This document shows positions 1,998 to 49,248 of a stretch of DNA of 64,000 nucleotides, piece after piece. Within the stretch, counting starts at the first letter, position 1. Every line of letters starts with the position of its first letter. The notes beneath the pieces are model-generated. The model searched no databases. It was not told where the DNA came from and saw only the letters and a program-made list of their open reading frames with translations. Location of the stretch: contig NZ_JADKYW010000003.1 in the NCBI RefSeq assembly GCF_015355785.1, forward strand, positions 470,028-534,027, given 5' to 3'. Origin of the DNA: Arthrobacter gandavensis. Its GTDB lineage: Bacteria; Actinomycetota; Actinomycetes; Actinomycetales; Micrococcaceae. The translations under genes and the position numbers were made by a program.

Positions 1998-2042
1998 GCT
2001 GGGAGTCTAGGCAGGACCCGCACAATCCGCCCGACGAAGTGT

Positions 2043-2086
2043 AAAGATTTCCGAATATTTCCTGACACCATGGCAATGTCCGCCAT
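2043..2086. promoter_or_regulatory. Divergent control region with two 10-bp direct repeats (possible PucR site)
   Basis: In the 146 bp between the PucR gene and the dehydrogenase, AAAGATTTCC (2043-2052) is followed immediately by GAATATTTCC (2053-2062). These are tandem near-copies at a spacing of one helical turn. Just downstream is a short inverted repeat ATGGC/GCCAT (2070-2074 and 2082-2086). The position between divergent genes makes this the likely regulator-binding region. Assignment to PucR is inference. Confidence 0.4.
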
Positions 2087-2143
2087 ACGGCAGCTGCGGC
2101 TTAGATGGTGTCCAGCCCACCTTCTACGCCCCAAGGAGCAAAC

Positions 2144-3634: not shown

Positions 3635-3654
3635 GCACACGGAAGGATTTCAGA

Positions 3655-30940: not shown

Positions 30941-31013
30941 CCATTCCACCGTGTCCCGGGCATAGAGTTGAATCGGGAGACCAATCCCCGTCTATGTCAT
31001 GGATCAGGATCGT

Positions 31014-33824
31014 ATGTCAGTTACAGCACAGGAAACCGCCACCGCCATCTCCGAACTGGGGAGCGGAGGAATCAGCACCCGGGAAATCGACCGCCGGAAA
31101 ATGGCACACGATGCATCCCATTACCTCCTGATCCCGCAGGCGGTCGCCACGCCCTCCACCACGGATGAAGTGGCACAGCTGATGCGCCGCAGCCGCGAAC
31201 TGGGCATCCCGGCAACGTTCCGCTCCGGCGGCACCTCACTCTCCGGCCAGGCCGTGAGCGACAGCCTCCTGATCGATACCCGCCACCACTTCCGGGACAT
31301 CGGAGTGCTCGACGGCGGCGCCCGCGTCCGCGTGGCTCCCGGCGCCACCGTACGCTCGGTCAACTCCAGGCTGGCAGCATTCGGCCGGAAGCTTGGCCCC
31401 GATCCCGCCAGCGAAATCGCCTGCACGATTGGCGGCGTCGTGGCCAACAACTCTTCCGGCATGGCCTGCGGCACCGAGTTCAACACCTACCGGACCCTCG
31501 AATCGATGGTCCTGGTGCTGGCCAGCGGCACGGTCCTGGACACCGGAGCGCCGGACGCCGAGGAGAGGCTGCGCGCCCTGGAACCCGAACTCTTCGAAGG
31601 ACTGCTCCGCCTGCGCGGCCGGATCGTGGCGAACACGGACTCCGTTGCCACCATCACCCGCCTGTTCTCGATGAAAAACACCATGGGCTACGGGCTGAAT
31701 TCATTCCTTGACTTCGAGAGCCCGGCAGACATCCTGGCGCACCTGATGATCGGCAGCGAGGGCACCCTGGGCTTCGTGGCGCAGGCGACCTTCCGCACGG
31801 TACCTGCCCTGCCCAAGGTCGCCACCGGCCTGATGTTCTTTGACACGCTCGACGCCGCTGCCACCGCCCTGCCCAGCCTCACCGCCACGGGCCTGGCAAC
31901 CGTTGAGCTCATGGACGCCACCTCCCTGCGCGTGGCCCAGCTGGCAGCGGATGCACCGCTTGAACTGCGGGACCTGGAACTCAAGTCCCACGCCGCCCTC
32001 CTCGTGGAGCACCAGGCGGCCACTGCCGAGGAGCTGGAGGCCAAGCGGAATGCATCCCTGCCGCTCTTCGAGTCACTGAGCCTGGCAGCACCGTTCGCCA
32101 TGACCACCGATGCCCGGGACCGCGCCGGCATGTGGCACATGCGCAAGGGCCTCTACACCACGGTGGCCGGTGCCCGCCCCTCCGGCACCAATGCCCTGCT
32201 GGAGGACATTGTGGTTCCGGTGCCGTCGCTGGCACGGACCTGCGCCGAGCTGGCCACCCTGTTCGCGGCCCACCACTACAAAGACTCCGTGATCTTCGGG
32301 CATGCCAAGGACGGCAACATCCACTTCATGCTCAATGAGAACTTCAGCGATCCGGCCGAGCTGGCCCGCTACGAGGCCTTCACCGAGGAGATGGTGGACC
32401 TGGTCCTCGGCGAAGGCGGCTCGCTGAAGGCCGAGCACGGCACCGGCCGGATCATGGCCCCCTACGTCCGGCGCCAGTACGGCGATGAGCTGTACGAAAT
32501 CATGGTGGAGGTCAAGCGCCTGATCGACCCCGCGAACCTGCTCAACCCGGGCGTGCTGATCAATGAGGATCCGCGGTCCTACGTGCAGAACCTCAAGGTT
32601 GCGCCCACGGTCGAGACGGAAGTGGACCGCTGCGTCGAGTGCGGCTACTGCGAACCGGTATGCCCCAGCAAGGACCTGACCACCACGCCCCGCCAGCGCA
32701 TTGTGCTCCGCCGCGAAATTGCCGACGCCGAAGCCCGCGGCGATTCGGAGCTCGCCGCCACCCTGCGGGCGGACTACGACTACGACGGCGTGCAGACCTG
32801 CGCCGTGGACGGAATGTGCGGCACGGCCTGCCCCGTGCTGATCAACACCGGCGACCTTGTTCGCCGGCTCCGCGCGGAGAACACCAGCAAGGCAGCAGAC
32901 GCCGGCTGGAAAGCTGCCGCCGGACGCTGGGGGACCATGACCTCCGCGGGCGGCAAGGCCCTGACCCTGGCCAAGGCCGTCCCCCCTTCCCTGCCCAGGC
33001 TCGCCACCGCCGTCGGGCGTGCGGTCCTCGGTGCCGACAACGTGCAGTCCTACGAGACCGTGCTTCCCGCCGGAGGCACCCGGCGCACCCCGCATGAGGA
33101 CGCGGATCCGGTGGCTGTGTTCTTCCCTGCCTGCATCGGCACCATGTTCGGGCCGGCCGCAGGCGGAGAAGGATCCGCCCCGGCGTTCATGGAAGTCTGC
33201 GGGCGCGCCGGGGTTGGGCTGCGCATCCCCAAGGGCATTGAAAACCTCTGCTGCGGCACTCCGTGGAAGTCCAAGGGCTTCTCCTCCGGCTACTCGGTGA
33301 TGACGGAGAAGGTCCTGGCCAACCTGTGGGTGGCCACCAACGGCGGACAGCTCCCGGTGGTGTGCGACGCCGCATCCTGCACTGAAGGACTGGACACCAT
33401 GAAGCGCCTGGCCGGGGAGAGCCCGGTCTACCCGGGCCTGAGGTTCGTGGACTCCGTTGACTTTGTCCGGGAGAGCATCCTTCCCCGGCTGGAAGTGACC
33501 CGAAAGCTGGGCTCGCTGGCGCTGCACCCCACCTGCTCCTCCACCCAGCTGGGGGCCAATGACGCGCTCAGCGAGATTGCCGCTGCCGTCAGCTCCGAGG
33601 TCTTCGTGCCGCCGAGCTGGGGCTGCTGCGCCTTCGCCGGGGACCGCGGCCTGCTGCATCCCGAGCTCACTGCGTCCGCAACCCGGAAGCAGGCCGGGGA
33701 AATCAATGCCCGGACCTTCGACGGGTACGCCTCGGTGAACCGCACCTGCGAAATCGGCATGAGCAAGGCCACGGGGCAGAGCTACCGCCACATCCTGGAG
33801 TACCTGGCCGAAGCCACGCGCTAA
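31014..33824 (+). CDS. FAD/Fe-S D-lactate dehydrogenase-type oxidoreductase (fused)
   Basis: The protein is about 936 residues. An FAD-binding PCMH domain (about 40-220, with FRSGGTSLSGQAVSD) and an FAD-oxidase C-terminal domain (to about 520, containing GHAKDGNIHFMLNENF and EHGTGRIMAPYVR) come first. Two [4Fe-4S] cysteine clusters follow (RCVECGYCEPVCPS and TCAVDGMCGTACPVL, about 538-610). A C-terminal CCG domain ends the protein (ENLCCGTPWKSKGF, WGCCAFAGDRG). This all-in-one architecture matches actinobacterial and Dld-II D-lactate dehydrogenases; glycolate or 2-hydroxyglutarate oxidation is the main alternative. AGGA at 31006-31009 supports the ATG at 31014; an ATG at 30999 would add five residues. 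The lactate context favours D-lactate. Confidence 0.85.
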   Translation: MSVTAQETATAISELGSGGISTREIDRRKMAHDASHYLLIPQAVATPSTTDEVAQLMRRSRELGIPATFRSGGTSLSGQAVSDSLLIDTRHHFRDIGVLDGGARVRVAPGATVRSVNSRLAAFGRKLGPDPASEIACTIGGVVANNSSGMACGTEFNTYRTLESMVLVLASGTVLDTGAPDAEERLRALEPELFEGLLRLRGRIVANTDSVATITRLFSMKNTMGYGLNSFLDFESPADILAHLMIGSEGTLGFVAQATFRTVPALPKVATGLMFFDTLDAAATALPSLTATGLATVELMDATSLRVAQLAADAPLELRDLELKSHAALLVEHQAATAEELEAKRNASLPLFESLSLAAPFAMTTDARDRAGMWHMRKGLYTTVAGARPSGTNALLEDIVVPVPSLARTCAELATLFAAHHYKDSVIFGHAKDGNIHFMLNENFSDPAELARYEAFTEEMVDLVLGEGGSLKAEHGTGRIMAPYVRRQYGDELYEIMVEVKRLIDPANLLNPGVLINEDPRSYVQNLKVAPTVETEVDRCVECGYCEPVCPSKDLTTTPRQRIVLRREIADAEARGDSELAATLRADYDYDGVQTCAVDGMCGTACPVLINTGDLVRRLRAENTSKAADAGWKAAAGRWGTMTSAGGKALTLAKAVPPSLPRLATAVGRAVLGADNVQSYETVLPAGGTRRTPHEDADPVAVFFPACIGTMFGPAAGGEGSAPAFMEVCGRAGVGLRIPKGIENLCCGTPWKSKGFSSGYSVMTEKVLANLWVATNGGQLPVVCDAASCTEGLDTMKRLAGESPVYPGLRFVDSVDFVRESILPRLEVTRKLGSLALHPTCSSTQLGANDALSEIAAAVSSEVFVPPSWGCCAFAGDRGLLHPELTASATRKQAGEINARTFDGYASVNRTCEIGMSKATGQSYRHILEYLAEATR

Positions 33825-33975: not shown

Positions 33976-34010
33976 TTGCAATCTTACTTTCTTCACCGTA
34001 TAAAGTAAGA
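33976..34010 (+). promoter_or_regulatory. Leaderless promoter overlapped by a perfect operator (ROK gene)
   Basis: The -35 TTGCAA (33976-33981) and -10 TATAAA (33999-34004) are separated by 17 bp. The -10 ends 6 bp before the ATG at 34011, so transcription should begin at or next to the start codon; no Shine-Dalgarno is present. Within this promoter TCTTACTTT (33982-33990) and AAAGTAAGA (34002-34010) form a perfect 9-bp inverted repeat with an 11-bp spacer, which would block RNA polymerase when occupied. Autoregulation by the ROK protein is the likely use. Confidence 0.75.
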
Positions 34011-35147
34011 ATGTCGTCCACCTCACATGCACCAACCGGCCGCCGGGAACTCCGGCGGATCCGGGTGGAGTCCGTAATGGGGGCCCTGCTGTCCCACGGC
34101 CCCATCTCCCGCACCGACCTCGCTGCGGCCACCGGATACAGCCCCTCCACCGTCACCGGAATAGTGCATGAGCTGCAGGAACTGGGATACCTCCAGGAAG
34201 TCGGCCAGCGCGAATCCACCGGCGGGCGCCGGCGCACGCTGATGGAGATCGACCGCTCCGCCGTGGTCCTGGTGGTGGCCGAGGTGTCCCGCGGAGCCGT
34301 CCGCGCCAGCCTGGTGGACCTGGACGCCGCAGTCCTTGAAACCCGGGAGTCGGTGTTCGACGCCGGGGACCCCGTGTCCTCCACCGCCCGGGCAGTAGCG
34401 GAACTGGCTGCCGCCGCGCCCCGCAGGCCTGCCCGCCTCGTCCTGGCGCTCCCGGGCGTCGTAGGCACGGACGGTACGGTCAGCCTCGCACCGGATTTCG
34501 CCGCAGCCAACGGCTCCGAACTCGCCGGTGAACTGCAGCGCCGGACCGGACTGCAGGTCACGCTCGAGAATGACGTCAACCTGGTAGCCCTCGGCGAGCG
34601 CAGTGCCGGTGCCGCCGCCGGCGTCGATGACCTGGTGCTGATCCACGTGGCCGAGGGCATTGGCGCCACAATCCTGAGCGGCGGCAGGCTCCTCCACGGG
34701 GCGACGCGTTCCGCCGGTGAGGTTGGCTTCCTGCCCGTGGCGCCCCGCCCGCTCCCCCACGGAAACCGCGGCCCCTTCGAAGCTGCCTGGAGCACCCCCG
34801 CGATTGCAGCGGCTGCCTCCTCTGCAGGGCTCGACGCCGGCGGGCCGGTGATCGCACGGATCTGCAGCGACGAACGCACCCGTGCCCTGCGCGACGAGGT
34901 ACTGGACGCCTGGGCGTGGGCCGCCGTCGTCTGCGCCTGTGTCCTGAACCCTGCGCTCGTTGTTTTCTCCGGCGACGCCGTGGACCTGGACAACCCGGCC
35001 CGCGCCGCACTGGCCGGCCGGATCCGCGCCGCAGCGCCGTCGGCCCCGGATGTCACTTTCGCGTCCCTGGGCGATGCCGGCATCCTGCACGGTGCCGTGG
35101 CCCGCGTCCTGGAAGACCCCTCAGCCCTCCTCACACCCGGCAGCTAA
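34011..35147 (+). CDS. ROK-family transcriptional regulator
   Basis: The 378-residue protein has an N-terminal winged helix (about 15-75; GPISRTDLAAATGYSPSTVTGIVHELQELGYL) and a ROK sugar-kinase-like domain with VLALPGVVGTDGTV and LENDVNLVALGE. The usual ROK zinc motif CxCGxxGC is not apparent and the kinase ATP residues look degenerate, so it is a regulator and not a kinase. ROK regulators respond to sugars or sugar phosphates, which fits the kinase and NagB-type enzymes downstream. Its start abuts the operator at 33982-34010. It is 51 bp upstream of and co-directional with the transporter operon, which it probably controls. Confidence 0.88.
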   Translation: MSSTSHAPTGRRELRRIRVESVMGALLSHGPISRTDLAAATGYSPSTVTGIVHELQELGYLQEVGQRESTGGRRRTLMEIDRSAVVLVVAEVSRGAVRASLVDLDAAVLETRESVFDAGDPVSSTARAVAELAAAAPRRPARLVLALPGVVGTDGTVSLAPDFAAANGSELAGELQRRTGLQVTLENDVNLVALGERSAGAAAGVDDLVLIHVAEGIGATILSGGRLLHGATRSAGEVGFLPVAPRPLPHGNRGPFEAAWSTPAIAAAASSAGLDAGGPVIARICSDERTRALRDEVLDAWAWAAVVCACVLNPALVVFSGDAVDLDNPARAALAGRIRAAAPSAPDVTFASLGDAGILHGAVARVLEDPSALLTPGS

Positions 35148-35198
35148 CCCCGCCGGCATTACCAACCACCCGCACCACCCACACCCAAGGAGAAGTAC

Positions 35199-36263
35199 AT
35201 GATCCGCACTGTCCGCAAGCCGCTCGGCGCCGTTGCCGGCGGCCTCGCGCTGATGCTCGCTCTCTCGTCCTGCGGCCTGGACGATTCGTCCTCCGGTTCC
35301 GAAGGTTCCGACGGCGGCACCCTCACCATCTACACCGCCCGGGACAAGGGCCTGGCCGAAGCGGTCGTGGCCGATTTCGAGGCAGCCAACCCGGATTACG
35401 CCGGCAAGGTGGAGATCCTTACCCTCGGTGCCCAGGAAGCACTGGAGCGCATCCGTGCGGAGAAGGCCAACCCGCAGGGCGACATCTGGTGGGGCGGCAC
35501 CGGCCAGCAGATGAAGCAGGCAGCCGGGGATGACATCCTCGCCGCCGCTCCGGAAGCAGTGATCGACGCCGTTCCCGAAGACCTGCGTGACCCCGCCGGC
35601 CTCTGGGTTGGCGAAATGCAGCTCGCCGAGGTGATCTTCTACAACCACGACATGCTCGGCGAAGAAGAAGCCCCCAAGGACTGGGATGACCTGGTTGCTC
35701 CGGAAATGGCGGACAAGCTGGCCATCCGCGACGTCGAGGCCTCCGGCACCATGCGCAGCATCTACTCCGCCATGATCGACCGCCAGTACGACGCCGCGGG
35801 CTCGCCCGAGGCAGGCTACGACTGGCTGCGCAAGCTCGACGCGAACACCAAGGTCTACGCTGCCAACCCCACCGATCTCTACCTGCGGGTAACCCGGCAG
35901 GAAGCCGCAGCCAGCGCCTGGAACCTGCAGGACGTCATGCTGCAGATCGAGAGCCAGAATGCCCCCTACACTCCGGTGATTCCCGAGTCCGGCGCTCCGA
36001 TGCTCGTGGACGGCGTGGCCAAGATCAAGAACGGCCCGTCCAGCGACGCCGCTGACGCGTTCCTCGAGTTCCTCTTCAGCGAGGAGACCCAGAAGGACCT
36101 CTCCGAGACCTACTACCAGATCCCCTCGATCGAAATGACCGAGACCCCGGCCTGGCTGGCCGAACTGGACCTGGTTGAAATGGACGTCGACTGGGACCGC
36201 ATTGGCCAGAACGAATCCGAGTGGATCGGCTACTGGGCCGAAAACATCAAGGGCAAGGGCTAA
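35199..36263 (+). CDS. ABC substrate-binding lipoprotein, AfuA/FbpA-like
   Basis: The 354-residue protein has a lipoprotein signal and lipobox (LALSSCGLDD, Cys at about 25). The periplasmic-binding fold of the Fe3+/hexose-phosphate group follows: TLTIYTARDKGLAEAVVADFE and NPQGDIWWGGTGQQM. In this group AfuA binds phosphorylated sugars while FbpA binds iron. The usual iron-coordinating tyrosine pair is not evident to me, so a sugar-like or carboxylate ligand is more plausible given the operon. AAGGAGAA precedes the ATG. First structural gene of the ROK-controlled operon. Confidence 0.85.
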   Translation: MIRTVRKPLGAVAGGLALMLALSSCGLDDSSSGSEGSDGGTLTIYTARDKGLAEAVVADFEAANPDYAGKVEILTLGAQEALERIRAEKANPQGDIWWGGTGQQMKQAAGDDILAAAPEAVIDAVPEDLRDPAGLWVGEMQLAEVIFYNHDMLGEEEAPKDWDDLVAPEMADKLAIRDVEASGTMRSIYSAMIDRQYDAAGSPEAGYDWLRKLDANTKVYAANPTDLYLRVTRQEAAASAWNLQDVMLQIESQNAPYTPVIPESGAPMLVDGVAKIKNGPSSDAADAFLEFLFSEETQKDLSETYYQIPSIEMTETPAWLAELDLVEMDVDWDRIGQNESEWIGYWAENIKGKG

Positions 36264-36345
36264 CCCAGCCCGGACAGGCAGCCGGCGCCCCGGCGCCGGC
36301 TGCCTCCCCCACCTTCCAACCCCCTACCCCCTGCGGAGAGCAGCC

Positions 36346-37434
36346 ATGACACGAGTCCTCCTCGAATCGATCGAAAAACGGTACCCGGGTGCCGCGCCTT
36401 CAGTGGCAGACCTTAACCTCACCATCGAAGACGGCGAGTTCTTCACCCTCCTGGGCCCGTCGGGGTGCGGCAAATCCACCACCCTGCGCATGGTTGCCGG
36501 CTTCATCCAGCCCTCCCGCGGGCGGATCCTGTTTAACGACCGCGATGTCACGAACACCGCGCCCAACCGCCGCGACACCGGCATGGTGTTCCAGAACTAC
36601 GCCCTGTTCCCGCATATGACGGTGCGCGCCAACGTGGGCTACGGCCTCAGCGTGCGGCGCACCGCGCGGGCAGAGAAAAACAAGCGCGTGGACCGCGCCC
36701 TGCAGCAGGTTGGCCTAGACGGCTACGCAGAGCGCCGCATCGACATGCTCTCCGGCGGACAGCAGCAGCGCGTGGCGCTGGCCAGGGCCCTGGTCATCCA
36801 GCCCTCGGTCCTGCTGCTTGACGAGCCGCTCTCCAACCTGGACGCGAAGCTCCGCGAGGAAACACGGGCAGAAATCCGCGGGACCCAGAAGGCTGCCGGC
36901 ATCACCAGCATCTATGTCACCCACGACCAGGCGGAAGCCATGGCCATGAGCGACCGCGTCGCCATCCTCGAGTCCGGCCGGCTGCACCAGGTTGCTCCCC
37001 CGCGCGAGGTTTACCACCGTCCGGCAACATCCTTCGTGGCCCGGTTCATCGGCCGTTCCAACGTGCTTGAATGCACCGTGCTGGAAACCGGCACCGACTC
37101 CGTGCACCTCAAGCTGGCCGACGGTTCGGTGCTGCGCGCCCCGCGGGTAGCCGGCACTGTCTCCGGAAGCGCCGGCGCCGGGGACATCGCCGCCGTCAGC
37201 CTGCGCCCCGAATCATTCACCATGCACACCGATGCCGGCGGCGAGAGCCGCCCGGGCACCCTGCGCGGCACGGTCAAGACAGCCGAGTTCACCGGTGCCG
37301 TCAACGTTTACGAAGTTGAATGGAACGGCCAGGACCTGGTGGTCTCCGTTCCCGATTCCGAGGACCGGGCACAGCCCGGGGACAGGGTCACCCTGTTCCC
37401 GCATCCGGACCGGGTCTGGCTGGTGGCCCCGTGA
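36346..37434 (+). CDS. ABC transporter ATP-binding protein (FbpC/PotA class)
   Basis: The 362-residue ATPase has Walker A GPSGCGKSTT, Q-loop VFQNYALFPHM, signature LSGGQQQRVALARAL, Walker B VLLLDEPLSNLD and switch His THDQAEAMAMSD, followed by a TOBE domain (about 245-360). It powers the importer formed with the neighbouring lipoprotein and fused permease. The ATG at 36346 follows CGGAGAG. The frame extending back to 36175 overlaps the binding-protein gene and is rejected. The stop overlaps the permease GTG by four bases. Confidence 0.93.
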   Translation: MTRVLLESIEKRYPGAAPSVADLNLTIEDGEFFTLLGPSGCGKSTTLRMVAGFIQPSRGRILFNDRDVTNTAPNRRDTGMVFQNYALFPHMTVRANVGYGLSVRRTARAEKNKRVDRALQQVGLDGYAERRIDMLSGGQQQRVALARALVIQPSVLLLDEPLSNLDAKLREETRAEIRGTQKAAGITSIYVTHDQAEAMAMSDRVAILESGRLHQVAPPREVYHRPATSFVARFIGRSNVLECTVLETGTDSVHLKLADGSVLRAPRVAGTVSGSAGAGDIAAVSLRPESFTMHTDAGGESRPGTLRGTVKTAEFTGAVNVYEVEWNGQDLVVSVPDSEDRAQPGDRVTLFPHPDRVWLVAP

Positions 37435-39245
37435 CCGGCCTCGCTGCGAAGCTGCGCAACCGCAGCGGAACCACGTCCTCAGACCGGTTCATCTACTGGC
37501 TGGCCGTTCCGCTGGCCCTCATCCTCCTGCTGTACATCGTCATTCCCATGTTCGCGACCGCCCGCACCAGCGTCGACGGTGGAATCGGCAACTACAGCGG
37601 CTTCTTCGGCGGGAACTCCGGCCGGGCACTGGGCCTCTCCGTAGGCATCTCCGTGGTCTCCGTGATCACCACCGGCGTGATCGGCACGGCGCTGGCCGTG
37701 CTGCTGACCCGCTTCGACTTCCCCGGACGCAACGTGCTGCGGCTGTTCGCGATGCTGCCCATGGCACTGCCGCCGCTGATCGGTGCCGTCTCCTTCTACT
37801 TCCTCTACGCGGAAAGCGGGATCCTGCCGCGCTTCCTGGCGCAGTACTTCGGGGCAGACCCCGGAGCGGTTTCCGCCAACGGCGTCCTGGGCGTACTGCT
37901 GGTCCACACCATGACCATGTACCCCTACTTCTATCTGGCCGTCTCCTCCGGCCTGGCCGGTTCCGACGCCTCCATGGAAGAAGCCGCGCTGAACCTGGGT
38001 GCCAGCCGCTACACCATGTGGCGCACGGTGCTGCTGCCCATGCTGACTCCGGCCCTGGTTTCCGGCGCCCTGCTGACCTTCATGGTCTCCATGGCGTCCT
38101 TCACCGCACCGCAGTTCTACAACGTGCAGACGCTGACCATGCAGATCGTGGCCTCGCGGACCTCCGGTGCCTACGAACTCGCCGCTGCCCAGTCCACGGT
38201 GCTGTCCGTCGTCTCCATCCTGTTCCTGCTGGCAATGCGCTGGTACCAGAACCGGCGGGTGCACCGCAGTGCTTCCAAGGGGACGCCGCAGGCAGTGAAG
38301 GTCATCCACGGAGCCCTTCCCCGCCTTGGTGCGGGACTCGGTTCCGCCGTCCTGGTGCTAATCCTGATGGCACCGGCCGCCGTCATTGTGCTGCTGGCCT
38401 TCACCGTGGACGGTTCCTGGACCGTGCAGATCCTGCCCAGCCAGTACACGCTGGGGAACTTCTCCCGGATCTTCACCGATCCGGCGACCCTGCGCCCCAT
38501 CCTGGTGAGCAGCCAGATGGCGTTCATCGCCATGATCGCGTGCACCGTCGTCGGCGTCATTGCCTCCTGGGTCGTCACGCGGTGGAAGGGTCCGGGCAAG
38601 GGACTGCTGGACGTGATGGTCATGATTCCCTGGGCACTGCCCGGCACCGTCGTCGGCGTCAACCTGGTGACCGCATTCGCCAGTCCCTCGCCCTTCAACC
38701 TGGGACAGGTGCTGATCGGTTCGCTGTGGATCCTCCCGGTCGCCTACTTTGTGCGGTTCCTTCCGCTGGTCTTCCGGTCCGCCAACGCGGCGCTGGCCCA
38801 GATTGACCCCTCCGTGGAGGAAGCGGCCCGCAACCTTGGTGCCGGCCACTGGCGGGTGCTGCGGACCGTGACGGTTCCGCTGATGTACCGCGGCATCCTG
38901 GCCGGCGCACTGATGGCGTTCATCCAGGGCTTCGGGGAGTACGTGGCTTCCGTGGTGATCTATCCGGCGCGCTTCGCACCGCTGTCCGTGGAGATCTACA
39001 ACCGGATCTACTCCAACGAGTTCGGCACCGCCGCAGCGTACGGCACCCTGCAGATGGGCCTGATCCTGATTGTCCTGATCATCTCGCAGCGGCTTGAAAA
39101 CCCGGGCAGCGGCGGCATCGCCAAGATGCTCAAGCGCCGCCGCCGCCCCACCGTGGAGACTCCGCTGGTTGGACCCATGCCGCCCACCGCCACCCCGCTG
39201 CCGATTCCCTCTTCCGCCGCCCCCGACCTGAAGCCGGTGAAATAA
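37431..39245 (+). CDS. ABC transporter permease, two fused inner-membrane domains (FbpB/AfuB type)
   Basis: The 604-residue protein contains two binding-protein-dependent permease domains in tandem. Each has the EAA loop: MEEAALNLGASRYTMWRTVLLPML (about residues 182-205) and VEEAARNLGAGHWRVLRTVTVPL (about 463-485). Roughly twelve transmembrane helices are visible. This duplicated layout is typical of FbpB and AfuB. The GTG start at 37431 overlaps the ATPase stop (GTGA), and the next gene begins 2 bp after the stop. The C-terminal tail is Pro-rich and probably cytoplasmic. Confidence 0.92.
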   Translation: MTGLAAKLRNRSGTTSSDRFIYWLAVPLALILLLYIVIPMFATARTSVDGGIGNYSGFFGGNSGRALGLSVGISVVSVITTGVIGTALAVLLTRFDFPGRNVLRLFAMLPMALPPLIGAVSFYFLYAESGILPRFLAQYFGADPGAVSANGVLGVLLVHTMTMYPYFYLAVSSGLAGSDASMEEAALNLGASRYTMWRTVLLPMLTPALVSGALLTFMVSMASFTAPQFYNVQTLTMQIVASRTSGAYELAAAQSTVLSVVSILFLLAMRWYQNRRVHRSASKGTPQAVKVIHGALPRLGAGLGSAVLVLILMAPAAVIVLLAFTVDGSWTVQILPSQYTLGNFSRIFTDPATLRPILVSSQMAFIAMIACTVVGVIASWVVTRWKGPGKGLLDVMVMIPWALPGTVVGVNLVTAFASPSPFNLGQVLIGSLWILPVAYFVRFLPLVFRSANAALAQIDPSVEEAARNLGAGHWRVLRTVTVPLMYRGILAGALMAFIQGFGEYVASVVIYPARFAPLSVEIYNRIYSNEFGTAAAYGTLQMGLILIVLIISQRLENPGSGGIAKMLKRRRRPTVETPLVGPMPPTATPLPIPSSAAPDLKPVK

Positions 39246-39247
39246 GC

Positions 39248-40738
39248 ATGACTATCCCCTCCCGTCCCCTCCTGACCGACCGCCCGGACCTCTCCGTTTA
39301 CTGGGACAACCACCTCCGCGATGCCTTCGAGGAAGCGGCAGCCAACATCTATCCGCCCATGGTGGAAGCCTCCCTGGCGCATGTCTGGATGCTCGACGAC
39401 GAAGGCATCCTGCCGCGCGAACGCTCGGCCCGGCTGGAGAAGGGCCTGCTGGAACTCTGGGAACGGATTACCGACGGCCGGCAGGAATACGTCTTCGACG
39501 GCTCCGTGGAGGACCCGTACTACTTCATGGAACAGCAGCTGGCCGCTGCCTGCGGCATCTCCACCTCGGAGCTGGACGTCCAGCTGGCCCGCAGCCGCAA
39601 CGACCTCGACGCGGGTGCCTTCCGGATGGTGCTCCGGCGCCAGATCCTGGACCAGGCGGACCTGGTGTTCCAGGCTGCCGCCGACGCCGCTGAACTGGCC
39701 CGCCGGCATGCGGACGCACTGATCATCGGCTTCACCCACCGCCGCCCGGCCCAGCCCACCACCATCGGCCATGTTCTGGGAGGCCTGGCCGAAGCCCTGC
39801 TGAGCCAGGGGCGGGAGCTGCTGGACATCTACGCGGAAATGAACGTTTCCCCGCTGGGTTCCGCCGCGTTCACCGGATCCGATGTGCCGATCAACCCGCA
39901 GACCGTCGCCGGCCTGCTGGGCTTCGATTCAACGTTCACGTCCAGCTACGAGGCGGTGGCCGGGGCGGAGCACTTCATGCGCCTGGCCGCTGCCCAGGCC
40001 CGGATCTGCGCCACCGGGGCCCGGTTCTCCCGCGTGCTGCTGGAATGGATGACTTTCGGCTGGGTGGCCACCCCGAATGCCTACACCCAGGGCTCCTCGA
40101 TCATGCCGCAGAAGAAGAACCCCGTGGTCCTGGAGCACATGGTCTCCATGGCCGGTGCCGCCGCCGCGGACATGTCCGCCACCTACGCGAACATCAACTC
40201 CGGCTGGTACGAGGACTCCAACAACGCCACCACGGATGTGCAGAAGCACCTGTGGCGCGCCTCGGACCGGGTGATCCGGTTCGTGCGGATGCTGGACGGC
40301 CTGCTGGGCGAATTCACCGTGCTGCGGCTTCCGGACAAGGCGGAGATCGTCCGCTCGGGTGCCACCACCACGTCCGTTGCGGAGGCGCTGGCAGTCGCCG
40401 GGGTGCCCTGGCGCGGAGCGCATGACGTCGTCGGGCGGCTGTTCAAGTCCGCTGACCCCACGGCGTGGTCGCGGGAGCAGGTGACCGGGGCCCTGGCCGC
40501 CGGGAACATCAGCGCGGACCTGGCCGATCTGGTGCTCGCCGCCGGAACCGATCCGGGACGCATCCTGGACCGGCCGCAGGCCGGCAGCCCCGGTATCAAG
40601 GCCGTCACCGCAACCGCCGACCTGGCGGCGGAAGCTGCCCGCACCCTGGCCGTCCGTACCGCCGAACTGCGCGCCGGCATCGACGCAGCCCGCGCTGGCC
40701 TGCTGGAACGCGCCCGGGCGCTGGCGGCCGCGGCATGA
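39248..40738 (+). CDS. Argininosuccinate lyase paralogue (fumarase/aspartase superfamily C-N lyase)
   Basis: The 496-residue protein keeps the superfamily active-site frame: RSRND at 115-119, Thr163-His164 in GFTHRRPAQP, and the mobile loop GSSIMPQKKNP with Ser284. It departs from true ArgH at usually constant places: ARSRNDL for GRSRNDQ, THRRPAQP for THLQPAQP, and SPLGSAAFTGSD for SPLGAGALAGTT. The fumarate-contacting parts are kept and the amine side is changed, so I infer beta-elimination of fumarate from a different N-succinyl (aspartate N-linked) compound, as in EDDS or iminodisuccinate lyases. No arg genes are near. It is coupled to the permease upstream (2-bp gap) and overlaps the kinase gene by an ATGA. 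Confidence 0.85.
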   Translation: MTIPSRPLLTDRPDLSVYWDNHLRDAFEEAAANIYPPMVEASLAHVWMLDDEGILPRERSARLEKGLLELWERITDGRQEYVFDGSVEDPYYFMEQQLAAACGISTSELDVQLARSRNDLDAGAFRMVLRRQILDQADLVFQAAADAAELARRHADALIIGFTHRRPAQPTTIGHVLGGLAEALLSQGRELLDIYAEMNVSPLGSAAFTGSDVPINPQTVAGLLGFDSTFTSSYEAVAGAEHFMRLAAAQARICATGARFSRVLLEWMTFGWVATPNAYTQGSSIMPQKKNPVVLEHMVSMAGAAAADMSATYANINSGWYEDSNNATTDVQKHLWRASDRVIRFVRMLDGLLGEFTVLRLPDKAEIVRSGATTTSVAEALAVAGVPWRGAHDVVGRLFKSADPTAWSREQVTGALAAGNISADLADLVLAAGTDPGRILDRPQAGSPGIKAVTATADLAAEAARTLAVRTAELRAGIDAARAGLLERARALAAAA

Positions 40739-41676
40739 GCGGTGCGCAGGCCGGCATCACCGTTGTAGGGAACACCAACCTGGACATCATGGTGTCCGGG
40801 ACAGCAGAACTCCCGAAACCCGGAACCGAAGCGATCGTGCCGGGCATCGACATCCGGCTGGGCGGGTCTGCCGGGAACCTCGCTGTCCGCTGCGCCGGGC
40901 TGGGACAGGACACCGTCCTGGTCAGCAGGGTCGGAGACGACGCGTCCACCCGGCTGGTAGAGCAGGAACTGGCCCTGCCCGGGCTGTCGGCGATACTGGT
41001 GCGGGACACTGCGCTGCCCAGCGGCATCACCGTGGCCGTTGAGGCACCCGGCCGGGACCGTGCCTTCATATCCTCACTGGGAGCCATGGCGGAGCTGACG
41101 CCGCGGGATGTTCCTGCCTCCGCCCTCGGCGCCGGCACGGTGGTGCTGGCCGGCTACTTCCTGCTGCCCAAACTGCGCGGGAACGCCGCCGCTGGACTCT
41201 TCGCCGCGGCCCGTTCAAACGGGGCCCTCACCGTGCTGGACACGGGCTGGCCTGCCGAAGGCTGGACCGAAGAGGTCCGGGCGGAGGTCCGCGGCGTGCT
41301 TGATTCCGTTGACCTGTTCCTGCCGAACAACGATGAGCTCACCGGCCTGACCGGGAACCCGGATCCGCAGGCCGCCGCCCTGCTGCTGGCGGGGCAGACG
41401 TCCACGCTGGTGGCCGTGAAACTCGGAGCCGACGGCGCCGGGCTGGCGCTGCCTGACGGAACCTGGCTGCACTCGGCTGCCCGGCCGGTAATGCCGGTGG
41501 ACAGCACCGGCGCCGGGGACGGCTTCAACGCCGCGTTCCTGGCCTGCCTCGCCCGCCGGGACACCCCCGCGCAGGCCCTGGCCGCCGCGGTCAGCTACGC
41601 CACCGAGCTGGTGGCCACCGCTCCCGAGCGGCGCAGCGCCGTCGTCCTGCCCGAAACCCAGCCGCTGTCCCTGTAG
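40735..41676 (+). CDS. PfkB-family carbohydrate kinase
   Basis: The 313-residue ribokinase-fold enzyme has LGGSAGNLAVRCAGLG (about 42-57) near the substrate site. The anion-hole/catalytic motif DSTGAGDGFNAAF is at 256-268, with catalytic Asp262. PfkB kinases phosphorylate sugars, nucleosides and Amadori compounds (FrlD). Its substrate is probably the sugar part released or imported in this operon. The ATG overlaps the lyase stop. TAGGAGG across its own stop codon forms the ribosome site of the next gene. Confidence 0.88.
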   Translation: MSGAQAGITVVGNTNLDIMVSGTAELPKPGTEAIVPGIDIRLGGSAGNLAVRCAGLGQDTVLVSRVGDDASTRLVEQELALPGLSAILVRDTALPSGITVAVEAPGRDRAFISSLGAMAELTPRDVPASALGAGTVVLAGYFLLPKLRGNAAAGLFAAARSNGALTVLDTGWPAEGWTEEVRAEVRGVLDSVDLFLPNNDELTGLTGNPDPQAAALLLAGQTSTLVAVKLGADGAGLALPDGTWLHSAARPVMPVDSTGAGDGFNAAFLACLARRDTPAQALAAAVSYATELVATAPERRSAVVLPETQPLSL

Positions 41677-41685
41677 GAGGACCCC

Positions 41686-42729
41686 GTGCACGTCTCCCGC
41701 ATTGGGAACCGCCCTGTAGTGCAGGGCCTGTCAATCGTCGATTTCCATCTGCATTTCAGGATGCCCTTCGATCCGCTGACCCGTCAGCTCTCCGGCGGCC
41801 AATTTGCCTGTGAGGAGTCCAGCGCCGCCGCCGCGGAACGGGCCGCCAAGGTGGCCGGAATGTCAGCGCAGTGGCGGCGCAGCTGGGACTTCGCTGACCC
41901 GGAGAGCACCGCGAAGGACGCCGGGTGGGAAGCGGAAGCAGACCGCTGGACGGCCGAGCTGGACCAGCACCATATTGAACACGCCACGTTCGTCACCGCC
42001 GGCGGGAACAAGGAAATGGCTGCGCTGGTGGAGCACGGAGCCGGGCGGTTCCTCGGCCTGGTGGCCATGGCCGATCCCTTCGCGCCGGGTGCGGTGGAGG
42101 AATTCCGGCGCGCGGTCCGCGACGACGGACTGCGCGGCCTGAAGCTCTTCGCCCCGCTGATGTCTTCCCGGATCGATGACCCCGCTGCGGATCCGCTCTG
42201 GCGGGTCGCCGCGGAGTACCAGGTGCCGGTGCTGATCCACTTTGGGCACTGCGGCTCCGCCGGCGGGATTGCGCACAACGCGATGATTGAACCGGCCTGG
42301 CTGGAGGCCGTGGCCAAACGGCATCCGGACGTGACGTTCGTGATTCCGCACTTCGGAATCCAGCACGTGCAGCAGGTGCTGTTCCTGATGTGGGCCTGCC
42401 CCAACGTGCTGGTAGATACCTCCGGCTCGAACCAGTGGGTGCGGTTCATGGCCCAAAAACTGACCCTTGAGGACCTGTTCCGCCGGTTCTACGAAACCCA
42501 CGGACCGGAACGGATAGTCTTCGGCACCGATTCCTCCTGGTTCCCCCGCGGTTACGCCCGGCGCTACCTGGTGGACCAGCTGCGGACCTGCTGGGAGATG
42601 GGCATGCCTGCAGCTGACGTGCAGAAGATCTTCGGGGCCAACGCCGCCCGCCTGCTCGGACTGGCGGACTGGGCACCGGCAGATCCGGAGCTGGCGCGGG
42701 CTCTCTCCCGGGAAGGAGCCGGAGCATGA
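41686..42729 (+). CDS. Amidohydrolase-2 family TIM-barrel protein
   Basis: The 347-residue metal-dependent enzyme has His21-x-His23 (IVDFHLHF), His185 (VLIHFGH), His222 (VIPHFGIQH) and Asp282 (VFGTDSSW), the amidohydrolase-2 ligand set. Members hydrolyse lactones or amides or decarboxylate acids. Here the reaction is not evident; ring opening, amide hydrolysis or decarboxylation of the imported conjugate are possible. The GTG at 41686 has TAGGAGG 5 bp upstream. The stop overlaps the NagB ATG, so it belongs to the operon. Confidence 0.82.
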   Translation: MHVSRIGNRPVVQGLSIVDFHLHFRMPFDPLTRQLSGGQFACEESSAAAAERAAKVAGMSAQWRRSWDFADPESTAKDAGWEAEADRWTAELDQHHIEHATFVTAGGNKEMAALVEHGAGRFLGLVAMADPFAPGAVEEFRRAVRDDGLRGLKLFAPLMSSRIDDPAADPLWRVAAEYQVPVLIHFGHCGSAGGIAHNAMIEPAWLEAVAKRHPDVTFVIPHFGIQHVQQVLFLMWACPNVLVDTSGSNQWVRFMAQKLTLEDLFRRFYETHGPERIVFGTDSSWFPRGYARRYLVDQLRTCWEMGMPAADVQKIFGANAARLLGLADWAPADPELARALSREGAGA

Positions 42730-43493
42730 GCGTGCAGATTCTGGTTGCTTCCTCTGTTCAGGATCAGGGCGTTGCCGCAGCGGATGCCGTGCTTGACCGC
42801 CTGGCTGTCCGCCCCGACCCCGTGCTGGGCATCGCCACCGGTTCCTCCCCGCTGCCGCTGTACGCGCAGCTCGCCGGGCGGGCCGGGGAGCTGCCGCGCC
42901 TTCGCTGCTTCGCGCTCGATGAATACCTCGGCCTGCCGGCGGACCATCCGCAGAGCTACCACGCCGTGGTCCGGCGGGAGGTCATTGAACCGCTGGGCCT
43001 GGATCCGGCTGATGTGAAGGTGCCCGACGGCGCCGCGCCTGCTCCGGAACGCGCCGCCGCTGCCTACGAAGCCGCCATTCGGGCCGCCGGGGGCATCGAC
43101 GTCCAAATCCTCGGTATTGGCAACAACGGGCACCTGGCCTTCAACGAACCCGGGTCCGCTCTGGATTCCCGCACTCGCGTGGTGGAGCTGACTCCCAGCA
43201 CCCGCGAAGCGAACGCCCGCTTCTTTGCCTCGCCGGAGGACGTTCCCACGCACGCACTGACGCAGGGGCTGGGAACCATCCGTGAAGCGCGGTCCCTCGT
43301 CCTGCTGGCTTCTGGCCCGGCGAAGGCAGAGGCGATCGCCGCAGCACTGACCGGTCCGGTGACCCCGGACATTCCGGCGTCGGTCCTGCAGCTGCATCCG
43401 GATGTGACGGTGCTGCTTGCCGGCGGCGCCGAGACCCGGCTGGACCCGGGCAGTTACAGCCTGGTTAGAGAAACCCGTACCGCCGGGCGCTGA
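42726..43493 (+). CDS. nagB: Glucosamine-6-phosphate deaminase family protein
   Basis: The 255-residue NagB-type isomerase/deaminase has Asp65 (FALDEYLGLP), His136 and Glu141 in GIGNNGHLAFNE, corresponding to E. coli Asp72, His143 and Glu148. The position of E. coli Asp141 is Asn134 here, as in several Gram-positive NagB proteins. NagB converts glucosamine 6-phosphate to fructose 6-phosphate and ammonia. There is no nagA or GlcNAc PTS here, and it ends an operon with a C-N lyase and PfkB kinase, so it may act on a related amino-sugar phosphate. The gene overlaps the amidohydrolase stop (ATGA). Confidence 0.87.
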   Translation: MSVQILVASSVQDQGVAAADAVLDRLAVRPDPVLGIATGSSPLPLYAQLAGRAGELPRLRCFALDEYLGLPADHPQSYHAVVRREVIEPLGLDPADVKVPDGAAPAPERAAAAYEAAIRAAGGIDVQILGIGNNGHLAFNEPGSALDSRTRVVELTPSTREANARFFASPEDVPTHALTQGLGTIREARSLVLLASGPAKAEAIAAALTGPVTPDIPASVLQLHPDVTVLLAGGAETRLDPGSYSLVRETRTAGR

Positions 43494-46519: not shown

Positions 46520-47992
46520 TTACAGCTCCGGGTACGTTCCAGCCCAGGGACGAAGCGCCTCAATGGCAGCACCGACGCGGAAGACGGATTCCTCCGCGAA
46601 CGGGTGGCCCACTACCTGCACACCGGTGGGAACGCCGTCGGCTCCAAAACCGGAGGGCACGGCCAGAACCGGGCAGCGGTTGGTGATGTTGAACGGCGCC
46701 GTCAGGTGGCCTTCCCAGTAGTGCTGCAGCGTCCACCCGGCCACCGAAATGCCGTCCAGATAGTCCCCGTCCGCGGCGAGGGATCCGGCTCCCGAGGTGG
46801 GGCAGAGCAGCACGTCGAAGCCGGCCATTGCCGTTGCCAGCTCCGCCTGGATCCTGGCCTCCTCCGCCAGTCCCTCCACCAGCGTCCTTCGCTGCGCTGC
46901 GGAACGGGCGTCCGCCATGAACCGGCGGGTATAGGCAGCCAGTGAGTCAGCATTCCCGGCGGTGGCCTCCTCCATGGCTGGTCCCAGGATGTGGCCAAAG
47001 TGGGTGAAGATGGTTTCCCGAATGCCCGCGGTGGTCCACGGCAGGTCAACTTCTTCCACCACGGCACCGGCCGCCTGCAGCATGGCGGCAACGGCTTGGG
47101 TGTTGGCTTCGACCGCCGCGTCCAGCGGATAGTCCCCCAGCCGAAGACACAGCGCCACGCGCAGCCCGGCTGCTTCGCCGGCGTCGGGATAGCGCAGCGG
47201 CAGCACGCCTGGACCGCCGACGGAGGCGTGGTCCCCCGGGTGGCGTCCGGACATCACGTTGGCCAGCAGGGCGGTGTCCGCAACCGTGCGCGCCATGGGC
47301 CCGTCCCCGCGGTACCAGTCGGCGGAGAGCGGAGCCTGTCCGGGGATCCTGCCGTAGGGCGCCTTGTAGCCGACGGTTCCGGTGAACGCTGCCGGCAGGC
47401 GGGTGGATCCCGCTATATCCGACGCCGTTGCCAGCGGCGCCAGGCCCGCGGCCAGTGCCGCTCCCGCTCCACCGGAGGACCCCCCGGGTGAGCGGTCCAG
47501 GTTCCAGGGGTTGCGAGTGACGCCCCACATGGGACTGTGCGTCACAGTGGCGCAGCTGAACTCCGGAGACGTAGTGCGGGCGTGCACGATTCCGCCGGCG
47601 GCACGGATGCGCGCCACCACGGGATGGTCGGCCGGGGCCAGCGTGCCGGTGTGGGCAAGCAGCCCCTGGGAGAGGCTGCGCCCGGCCAGGGCGTGCTTCT
47701 CCTTGGTCGCCACGGGCAGTCCCAGGAGCGGAAGCTCCCCTGTGTCGCCGTTCAGGTACGCCGCTTCGGCTTCCCGTGCCTGCACCATGGCGTCGTCGAA
47801 CAGCGTTTCAGTCAAGGCATTCACGGTCGGGTTCGCCGTGTCCGTCCGCTCCGCGACCGCCGTCAGCAGTTCAACGGGCGAGAGGGTGCCGGAGCGGAAC
47901 AGCTCCAGCGCGGAGACGGCGTCCAGGTAATGCAGCGGCGGGTCCGCTGCGGGACGTGCGGCGAGGCCTTCGCCGGTCACCGGCGTGCTCAT
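46520..47992 (-). CDS. Amidase, amidase-signature family
   Basis: The 490-residue hydrolase has the Ser-Ser-Lys triad: Lys97 (GLPVATKEKHALAG), Ser173 in the glycine-rich SPGGSSGGAGAALAAGLAP, and nucleophile Ser196 in DIAGSTRLPA. It hydrolyses amides to acids and ammonia. The start ATG overlaps the stop of the M20 hydrolase (ATGA). The pair therefore probably acts in sequence on an N-carbamoyl or amide compound imported by the MHS transporter upstream. Exact substrate not deducible. Confidence 0.88.
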   Translation of the reverse strand: MSTPVTGEGLAARPAADPPLHYLDAVSALELFRSGTLSPVELLTAVAERTDTANPTVNALTETLFDDAMVQAREAEAAYLNGDTGELPLLGLPVATKEKHALAGRSLSQGLLAHTGTLAPADHPVVARIRAAGGIVHARTTSPEFSCATVTHSPMWGVTRNPWNLDRSPGGSSGGAGAALAAGLAPLATASDIAGSTRLPAAFTGTVGYKAPYGRIPGQAPLSADWYRGDGPMARTVADTALLANVMSGRHPGDHASVGGPGVLPLRYPDAGEAAGLRVALCLRLGDYPLDAAVEANTQAVAAMLQAAGAVVEEVDLPWTTAGIRETIFTHFGHILGPAMEEATAGNADSLAAYTRRFMADARSAAQRRTLVEGLAEEARIQAELATAMAGFDVLLCPTSGAGSLAADGDYLDGISVAGWTLQHYWEGHLTAPFNITNRCPVLAVPSGFGADGVPTGVQVVGHPFAEESVFRVGAAIEALRPWAGTYPEL

Positions 47993-49248
47993 GCTGCCGG
48001 ACCCGTGGCCTGGTCAGTCAGGGCACCGTGGATCAGCTTCCAGCCGAGTTCGGTGAGGGCATCCAGGCCGGTAGCCATGTCCTCGTCCGTGGTGAACTCG
48101 CGTTCGCAGTGGGAAACCCCGTCAACGGAGGGAATGAACATCATCACCGTGGGGGCGATGCGGTTCAGCGCCACGGAGTCGTGGCCTGCCATGGTCTGGA
48201 TCCGGCGGATGCCGAGGCCCAGCCCGGCGGCAACCTTCTCGGCCAGCTCCAGCCCGTCCTCGGGGTAGTACTGGATGCCGCGGATATCGAAGTCGTTCAC
48301 ATTGATGGTGATGTCGTGTTCCCGGGCGATGGCGTCGATGTCCGCGAGCAGGGACGCACGGGCTTCGGCAACGATCTCCGGCGAGGCCGAGCGCAGGTCC
48401 GCCACCAGGTGGACGCGGCGGGCGACGACGATCGGCGAGTTCGGTTCCAGGGTCATCCGCCCCACCGAGGACACCAGTGCCTCATCCGCGAACTGCTTCG
48501 TCACGTCGTGGACCAGCAGCACCACCTTGGAGGCAGCCACCAGGGCATCGTGCCGGTCCGCCATGGCAGTGGCTCCGGTATGCGACTGTTCGCCAAGCAC
48601 CTCGATATCCAGTTTCTGGGTGTACCAGGAATAGTCGACGGCGCCCAGCGGGAGCTGCTCTCGCTCCAGGATGCGGCCCTGTTCAATGTGGATCTCCGCG
48701 TAGCTGGCCACTTGGGGCCGCAGATCCGTGCCGAGGTACCCGATGCCGGAGAGTGCCTCCCGGACGGAAATCCCGGCAAGGTCGCGGACCTCCAGCATGG
48801 CTTCCTCTTCCATGAGTCCGGCAAATACGGAGCTGCCCATGATGGACGGTGCGAACCGCCCGCCTTCCTCGTTGAACCAGTTCACGACCGCCAGGTTGAA
48901 GACCGGCGTGCCCCCGGAGGCCCGCAGGCGTTCGGTGATCCGGGACGCCGCGTGCAGGCCCGCGATCACCCCGTACGCGCCATCGAACCTCCCGCCCAGC
49001 GGCTGGCTGTCCAGATGGGAGCCGACCAGGACGTACGGTGCGCCTGGAACCAGCTCGATCAGCGCGAACATGTTGCCGATGCCGTCCACCCGCACCTCCC
49101 AGCCGCGGGTCTCGGCATAGGCGGCAAACCAGTCCCTGGTCTGCTTGTCTTCAGCGGTGGCTGCTTGCCGGTCGACGCCGTTGGCAGCGGTGGCGCCAAT
49201 GGCGGCGACGTCATGGAAGTCCTTCAGGAAGGCCTGGGGTGAAGTCAT
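47989..49248 (-). CDS. M20-family Zn hydrolase (N-carbamoyl amino acid/allantoate amidohydrolase type)
   Basis: The 419-residue binuclear metallohydrolase has metal ligands His78 (VGSHLDSQ), Asp89 (GGRFDGAYG), Glu127-Glu128 (WFNEEGGRF), His187 (EIHIEQG) and a C-terminal His in DGVSHCERE. The HIEQG and GGRFDG motifs place it with L-carbamoylases and allantoate amidohydrolases, which release ammonia and CO2 from ureido groups. Operon order transporter, M20 hydrolase, amidase suggests complete use of an imported ureido or amide compound as a nitrogen source (inference). Confidence 0.88.
   Translation of the reverse strand: MTSPQAFLKDFHDVAAIGATAANGVDRQAATAEDKQTRDWFAAYAETRGWEVRVDGIGNMFALIELVPGAPYVLVGSHLDSQPLGGRFDGAYGVIAGLHAASRITERLRASGGTPVFNLAVVNWFNEEGGRFAPSIMGSSVFAGLMEEEAMLEVRDLAGISVREALSGIGYLGTDLRPQVASYAEIHIEQGRILEREQLPLGAVDYSWYTQKLDIEVLGEQSHTGATAMADRHDALVAASKVVLLVHDVTKQFADEALVSSVGRMTLEPNSPIVVARRVHLVADLRSASPEIVAEARASLLADIDAIAREHDITINVNDFDIRGIQYYPEDGLELAEKVAAGLGLGIRRIQTMAGHDSVALNRIAPTVMMFIPSVDGVSHCEREFTTDEDMATGLDALTELGWKLIHGALTDQATGPAA

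Follow-up and report, generated by a model that had tools for sequence, protein, structure and literature searches.

The window analysed here is a 64,000-nucleotide stretch of the Arthrobacter gandavensis genome (NCBI RefSeq assembly GCF_015355785.1, contig NZ_JADKYW010000003.1, positions 470,028 to 534,027 of the forward strand; host genome 3.37 Mb in 9 contigs). Its positions 34011-43493 carry eight genes, all open, all on the + strand and separated by short gaps or overlapping. A first-pass annotation had described them as eight co-directional genes with 2-82 bp gaps or 4-bp overlaps, and all families and junctions were verified. We consider that there is about an even chance that this operon imports and degrades a conjugate of glucosamine and a four-carbon dicarboxylate, of which glucosamine-O-L-malate would be the simplest. 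The features are given below in window coordinates.

33983..34009, no strand: operator-like palindrome, a perfect inverted repeat CTTACTTT-N11-AAAGTAAG, probable ROK operator
34011..35147, + strand: ROK-family winged-helix regulator (Pfam ROK 1.7e-27, helix-turn-helix matches)
35199..36263, + strand: solute-binding protein (SBP) of the AfuA/P5PA/iron-SBP group (Pfam SBP_bac_6 6.9e-21; PDB matches)
36346..37434, + strand: ABC transporter ATPase (Pfam ABC_tran 4.3e-39, TOBE_2)
37431..39245, + strand: two-domain ABC permease, GTG start at 37431 (Pfam BPD_transp_1, two stretches)
39248..40738, + strand: lyase of the argininosuccinate lyase (ASL)/fumarase superfamily, not ArgH (Pfam Lyase_1 4.3e-30; nearest solved relative EDDS lyase)
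40735..41676, + strand: sugar kinase of the PfkB/ribokinase family (Pfam PfkB 1.7e-37)
41686..42729, + strand: Amidohydro_2 protein, GTG start at 41686 (Pfam Amidohydro_2 5.6e-38)
42726..43493, + strand: NagB-type glucosamine-6-phosphate deaminase, the second copy in the genome (Pfam Glucosamine_iso 1.8e-20)

As read from the sequence, the ROK gene is followed by a 51-bp gap and the SBP gene, then by an 82-bp gap and the ATPase gene, which overlaps the permease gene by 4 bp (GTGA). Permease and lyase are separated by 2 bp, lyase and PfkB overlap by 4 bp (ATGA), PfkB and amidohydrolase are separated by 9 bp, and amidohydrolase and NagB again overlap by 4 bp (ATGA). None of the eight proteins passed an NCBIfam cut-off among the families listed (a list that covers the best 25 of 186 families for the ATPase and the best 25 of 29 for the permease), and therefore no curated name applies among these families; the amidohydrolase had zero NCBIfam matches.

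Related loci were collected by a contig scan, which gave 19 loci (82 stretches matched a pattern), and by whole-genome surveys. These found the lyase unit in 10 of 394 genomes at class level, 2 of 396 at phylum level and 14 of 395 at family level, the own genome being counted each time. The unit is patchy, most sampled genomes being without it. Both genomes of the phylum survey were already among the earlier loci, 8 of the 13 non-own loci that came from the family survey were set aside as repeats of earlier contigs, and 33 distinct non-own loci remained; the search for plasmid relatives gave no match at 1e-50. Across the 33 loci (numbered with the prefix L below) the core order regulator-importer-lyase-kinase recurred and is therefore more than chance. 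The earlier proposal of one catabolic unit is supported. The SBP was found in 31, the ATPase in 32 and the permease in 32, with the misses (L005, L009) at contig edges, and the ROK regulator in 30 (two contig-edge misses plus L064). The gene directly after the lyase was PfkB in 22 loci, a ROK kinase in 9 (a count that leaves out weak 28-34% matches, which are the ROK regulator itself) and decayed in 2. Of the 22 PfkB loci, 7 have lyase and PfkB fused into a single protein (7/33; domains checked in L013 and L018). The two decayed copies are at L011:11500-13327, where PfkB is interrupted by a transposase-like frame, and at L064:9300-12500, where everything after the lyase has been lost. Around the core, an amidohydrolase was present in 17 loci, a protein of the creatininase family in 9, a PIG-L deacylase in 14 and NagB in 7; the co-occurrence of families in relatives raised in the first-pass annotation was thus found for the core, with NagB and the amidohydrolase as accessory genes.

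The lyase carries the ASL/fumarase superfamily signature (GSSIMPQKxNP, SRND and TH motifs), as do the more distant examples of families f27 and f42. It scored 212.4 bits against TIGR00838 (ArgH), below the cut-off of 279.5. Two further genome matches were found at E <=1e-3, one 30% identical at C6:7208-8416, adjoining what we read as an argG-like gene, and a weaker one that we read as a class II fumarase. The window lyase is not ArgH, the host having a separate argG-argH pair, and the question whether it is the only argininosuccinate lyase of the genome is answered in the negative by the 30% homolog. The arginine-side motif of ArgH, YNRDLQEDK in the host's own ArgH, reads WYEDSNNATTDVQKH in 11/11 aligned lyase rows; the loop WYEDSNNATTDVQKHLW, identical in the 11 aligned rows, occupies its place, and in the f27/f42 examples the loop reads WWEDSNNATTDVQxRLW with slight variation.

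EDDS lyase was the best match in the profile search (179.0 bits; best true ASL 152.6), the nearest solved relative in the single-sequence search, and ranks 1-4 of the fold search at 26% identity (lyase model mean pLDDT 83.1). PMC12363623 places EDDS-lyase residues R112, N113, Q159, N288, D290 and Y320 at 4-6 A from the substrate. By our alignment mapping R112, N113 and N288 are kept as R117, N118 and N291, and Q159, D290 and Y320 are changed to H164, V293 and D323; with three of these six residues kept, the protein does not fall with EDDS lyase itself. XcbC is also among the NCBIfam matches, and its chemistry, which we take to involve an oxygen leaving group, would be a precedent in the lyase superfamily, as is fumarase itself. 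The superfamily works on L-aspartate and L-malate derivatives, and the L-malate configuration would suit it.

Three Glucosamine_iso genes were found in the host: that of the window, a second that by our reading is flanked by genes for a GntR-like regulator and a NagA-like protein (the nagBA locus), and one more, which is probably a 6-phosphogluconolactonase. Over 211 residues the window NagB shares 62% identity with the nagBA-locus NagB, a closeness that places it with canonical NagB. Because it is a paralog of the nagBA-locus deaminase, the pathway intermediate is predicted to be, probably, glucosamine-6-phosphate, and a NagB of the nagBA type predicts glucosamine rather than 1-amino-fructose. 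The earlier view that the pathway probably centres on lyase, kinase and NagB is supported.

In 14 of the 33 loci a PIG-L gene lies upstream and divergent. Its product (~920 aa) has a twin-arginine-like start, a PIG-L domain (69.0 bits, Pfam cut-off 28.2), NEW3 and CBM9, and the HxDD + H motif is identical in 6/6 PIG-Ls. The four NCBIfam matches were BshB1, Mca, MshB and BshB2, all under cut-off; scores of 37.4 vs 182.5 bits (TIGR04001) and 20.5 vs 195.25 bits (TIGR04000) place it outside BshB. The best PDB match was LnmX, followed by chitobiose deacetylases and MshB, and according to a review the PIG-L/LmbE family acts on N-acylglucosamine cores. The PIG-L is co-inherited with the lyase operon: in a 27-row tree, 9 of the 10 PIG-Ls from lyase operons group in a single clade (100/99) that excludes stand-alone f27 paralogs, and the tenth (L039), whose row is truncated to 448 aa at the locus edge, lies outside. 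The tree omits L022, L036, L038 and L041; in L022 (positions 1827-4618, Helcobacillus massiliensis) the PIG-L is split into two open reading frames in different frames, a pseudogene or a sequencing error.

The stand-alone PIG-L paralogs occur at 17 loci, with a sugar SBP in 17, GH4 in 13, a PfkB-like kinase in 12, DeoR in 11 and NagB in 1 (neighbours clustered by single-linkage BLAST, Pfam names checked on L101 alone). These loci (L089-L105, e.g. L101:1537-11630), from other actinobacteria, hold GH4, DeoR, PfkB, a sugar-type ABC importer and a secreted PIG-L-type protein, with NagB in L101. The arrangement resembles a route in which a disaccharide of N-acetylglucosamine (GlcNAc) is used by means of a deacetylase and a 6-phosphoglycosidase, and may be a parallel scheme with GH4 in place of the lyase.

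The palindrome ends one base ahead of the ROK start. At <=3 mismatches it had one match in the window and 0 in 100 shuffles, and over the whole genome it was the sole match (0 mismatches, both strands), while the control pattern, the palindrome read backwards, had 2 matches per strand. A search of 32 sequences, window included, for the strict form found a single copy in each of 13. A matrix was built from 6 Micrococcaceae sites (4 distinct) of the window and 5 other loci and scanned over 15 of the 33 non-own loci; its top match was in the ROK upstream region in 15/15. A second site scoring >10 was present between PIG-L and ROK in 6 of 11 PIG-L loci (L013, L014, L016, L018, L022, L039) and in 0 of the 4 scanned loci without PIG-L; at other places scores reached at most 6.4, a value seen in the window. 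PIG-L therefore probably shares the regulon of the ROK unit in several lineages. The best NCBIfam match of the ROK protein was NagC (105.7 bits, cut-off 650).

The importer had been called AfuA-like, which holds for the overall match and in part for the ligand residues. AfuA (4r72) was the top PDB match of the SBP at 1.5e-21, followed by 6wce at 1.5e-20 and, lower, several iron-binding proteins. PMC4546632 names S37, T150, H205, D206 and E229 as ligand residues of AfuA. By our mapping D206 and T150 have equivalents in the SBP, and H205, E229 and S37 are replaced by Q244, L269 and A78; one of three residues of the His205/Asp206/Glu229 motif is kept, and the replacements are identical in 31/31 SBPs, as are R48, D49, W97, W98, R186, W241, Q244, D245 and D271. 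A hexose-phosphate importer of the AfuA kind was rejected on the loss of most of this motif, whereas an iron importer is still a possible reading in view of the iron-binding proteins among the PDB matches. We infer that the ligand may be one conserved compound, anionic and sugar-like.

From these comparisons we propose a route that is inferred throughout, in its reactions and substrate, in which of lyase and kinase acts first, and in the repression. The source would be GlcNAc-malate of neighbouring bacteria or their bacillithiol, which serves such bacteria as a protective molecule. In relatives of the PIG-L type, the secreted LmbE deacylase would strip the N-acyl group outside the cell, and the AfuA-like ABC importer would take in the anionic conjugate. 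The lyase would then eliminate fumarate to leave glucosamine, or glucosamine-6-phosphate should the kinase act first; PfkB, or the ROK kinase in other lineages, would yield glucosamine-6-phosphate, and NagB would convert this to fructose-6-phosphate and ammonia. The ROK protein would act at the palindrome and keep the unit repressed as long as the sugar is absent.

D-GlcNAc-L-malate is the bacillithiol precursor (PMC6282198). We can name one widespread natural scaffold in which glucosamine is joined to a group that could leave as fumarate, namely D-glucosamine-L-malate, the bacillithiol core. In the host mshC scored over cut-off and no bshC match was found in the genome (bshC controls were detected in 3 of 14 genomes); glucosamine-malate would therefore be foreign to it. 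The identification of the conjugate as the bacillithiol core specifically is tentative, and we would sooner expect it to fail than to hold. Similarly doubtful, if possible, is the further idea that an ASL relative turned glycoside lyase splits off O-linked malate as fumarate, and that mycothiol-making actinobacteria thereby use their neighbours' redox thiol as food.

The amidohydrolase was earlier taken to open an amide or lactone first, and as an amide opener it is not clear. Residues H21, H23, H185, H188, H222 and D282 are identical in 11/11 sequences. Fold neighbours of its model (mean pLDDT 78.6) were an uncharacterised barrel protein, 5-carboxyvanillate and dihydroxybenzoate decarboxylases and a probable 2-pyrone-4,6-dicarboxylate hydrolase. 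Their identity to it is 14-18%, with query TM-scores of ~0.5-0.6. The model thus appears nearest Amidohydro_2 decarboxylases and lactonases, a weak assignment of reaction. Over the 33 loci the amidohydrolase was present in 17 and PIG-L in 14, with both in 1 and neither in 3 (2 decayed, 1 at a contig end). A role as an intracellular stand-in for PIG-L was considered and not adopted: the pattern follows phylogeny, and the modelled fold points to decarboxylases and lactonases. It is speculation that glucosamine-malate, if its amine is free, could cyclise to a six-membered lactam, which a ring-opening amidohydrolase or, in other lineages, the creatininase would reopen. In L039 and L040 (family f42) a creatininase-family gene and an amidohydrolase gene both lie between permease and lyase.

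Several observations weigh against the glucosamine-malate proposal. The amidohydrolase (17/33) and the creatininase-family protein (9/33) have no step in it, and NagB is present in 7 loci only. The window NagB itself falls just under the NCBIfam cut-offs (296.8 vs 326 for NF001684, 210.8 vs 236.9 for TIGR00502). The best matches of the PfkB kinase were ribokinases, with no glucosamine kinase among them; fructoselysine 6-kinase was among its weaker matches (2.5e-09) and matched the fused lyase-PfkB protein of L018 at 4.1e-17. No relative of ASL is known to us to cleave a glycoside. For the PIG-L, Arg109 of BshB, which contacts the substrate, is by our motif reading Asn (N180) in lyase-type and GH4-type proteins alike, and CBM9 and NEW3 suggest a polymeric or cell-bound substrate. 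In the class survey, 30 of 394 genomes had PIG-L and 10 had the lyase; of the 9 non-own lyase genomes, 7 had PIG-L and 2 were without it. A search of the window genome for such a PIG-L gave no match at 1e-60 (best remnant match 1e-9), and 15 loci of the PfkB/amidohydrolase type show none. The second intergenic operator was weak (<=3.4) in 4 of the 11 PIG-L loci (L015, L033, L034, L035) and absent by matrix scan at L019.

Some of these observations fit a different glycoconjugate of N-acylglucosamine, perhaps polymer- or cell-bound, from which the lyase would eliminate an aglycone other than malate while the amidohydrolase or creatininase trims. CBM9 and NEW3 on PIG-L and the two alternative extra metallohydrolase families in the loci favour it, and the SBP pocket positions, identical in 31/31, indicate one defined ligand; no natural compound that meets all constraints can be named, however, and we regard it as unlikely. 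The first-pass annotation had favoured an aspartate Amadori product. In the corresponding scheme the amidohydrolase or creatininase deamidates fructose-asparagine, the lyase releases fumarate and 1-amino-fructose, PfkB phosphorylates and NagB deaminates. This gives the amidohydrolase or creatininase a job, fumarate-side residues are kept in the lyase by our EDDS-lyase mapping, and the kinase resembles fructoselysine 6-kinase (2.5e-09; 4.1e-17 in L018), although ribokinase scores better. Against it, a SIS-type deglycase is not among the eight proteins, NagB is a copy of the nagBA-type deaminase (62%), the PIG-L deacylase found in 14/33 relatives is left without a job, and the modelled amidohydrolase fold appears nearest decarboxylases and lactonases. 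The scheme is improbable; the pathway first outlined was right in outline, with the substrate probably wrong.

A Heyns compound, N-(2-deoxy-glucos-2-yl)-aspartate, would let the lyase cleave a true C-N bond to fumarate and glucosamine directly, which is the usual chemistry of the superfamily, agrees with EDDS lyase as nearest relative and supplies glucosamine for PfkB and NagB; PIG-L would have nothing to do, Heyns aspartate is not known to us to be an abundant nutrient, and we rate this quite improbable. That the lyase is a second argininosuccinate or adenylosuccinate lyase in a loose grouping of genes was rejected as exceedingly improbable, since its 212.4 bits to TIGR00838 fall under the cut-off of 279.5, the host has its own ArgH beside the argG-like gene, the arginine-side motif is replaced, and synteny and the lyase-kinase fusion speak against it.

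Outside the operon, a gene for a 941-aa flavin adenine dinucleotide-linked oxidase/iron-sulfur protein (GlcD-GlcF-like by our reading) lies directly upstream at 30999-33824, and is also upstream in L004, L006, L007 and L008. Downstream, at 46520-49248 on the - strand, an amidase-like gene overlaps a hydantoinase/carbamoylase-like gene (our reading), a pair kept downstream in L004, L005 and L006.

If the glucosamine-conjugate proposal is true, the unit opens an amino-sugar conjugate by means of a lyase, a way that differs from those of glycosidases and deglycases, and genes of generic families in many actinobacteria (ASL-like, iron-type importer, ribokinase-like, amidohydrolase) become one testable pathway. 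Should the substrate be the bacillithiol core, this would be a route recycling a thiol scaffold as food; in listings of open-licence PMC papers and the beginnings of their abstracts, neither such a route nor a pathway for the unit was found described.

The nearest known systems each share part of the unit. EDDS lyase (Chelativorans sp. BNC1, PDB 6g3d/6rx8) is the best profile and fold match, forms fumarate and has equivalents of R112, N113 and N288, whereas the window lyase is 26% identical, has Q159, D290 and Y320 changed and sits in a sugar-kinase operon. The fra/frl Amadori operons have an importer, a PfkB-type kinase and amino-sugar logic in common with the unit, which differs in its lyase and nagBA-type NagB, in the PIG-L of relatives and in having no SIS-fold deglycase among its eight proteins, so that it is not of the fra type. 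The AfuABC hexose-phosphate importer has the top PDB match (4r72) and the D206 and T150 equivalents, but H205, E229 and S37 are replaced in the window SBP by our mapping. With the LmbE deacylases BshB, Mca and MshB, which account for its four NCBIfam matches, the PIG-L of relatives shares the domain with HxDD + H; in contrast to them it is secreted, ~920 aa long, carries NEW3 and CBM9, has Asn at Arg109 and lies under all cut-offs. The scheme of a deacetylase plus GH4 (chitobiose-like, as in chb) resembles the unit in that PIG-L paralogs sit with GH4, PfkB, an importer and once NagB, and differs in that the lyase unit has a lyase of the ASL superfamily in place of GH4 and an AfuA-type in place of a sugar-type importer.

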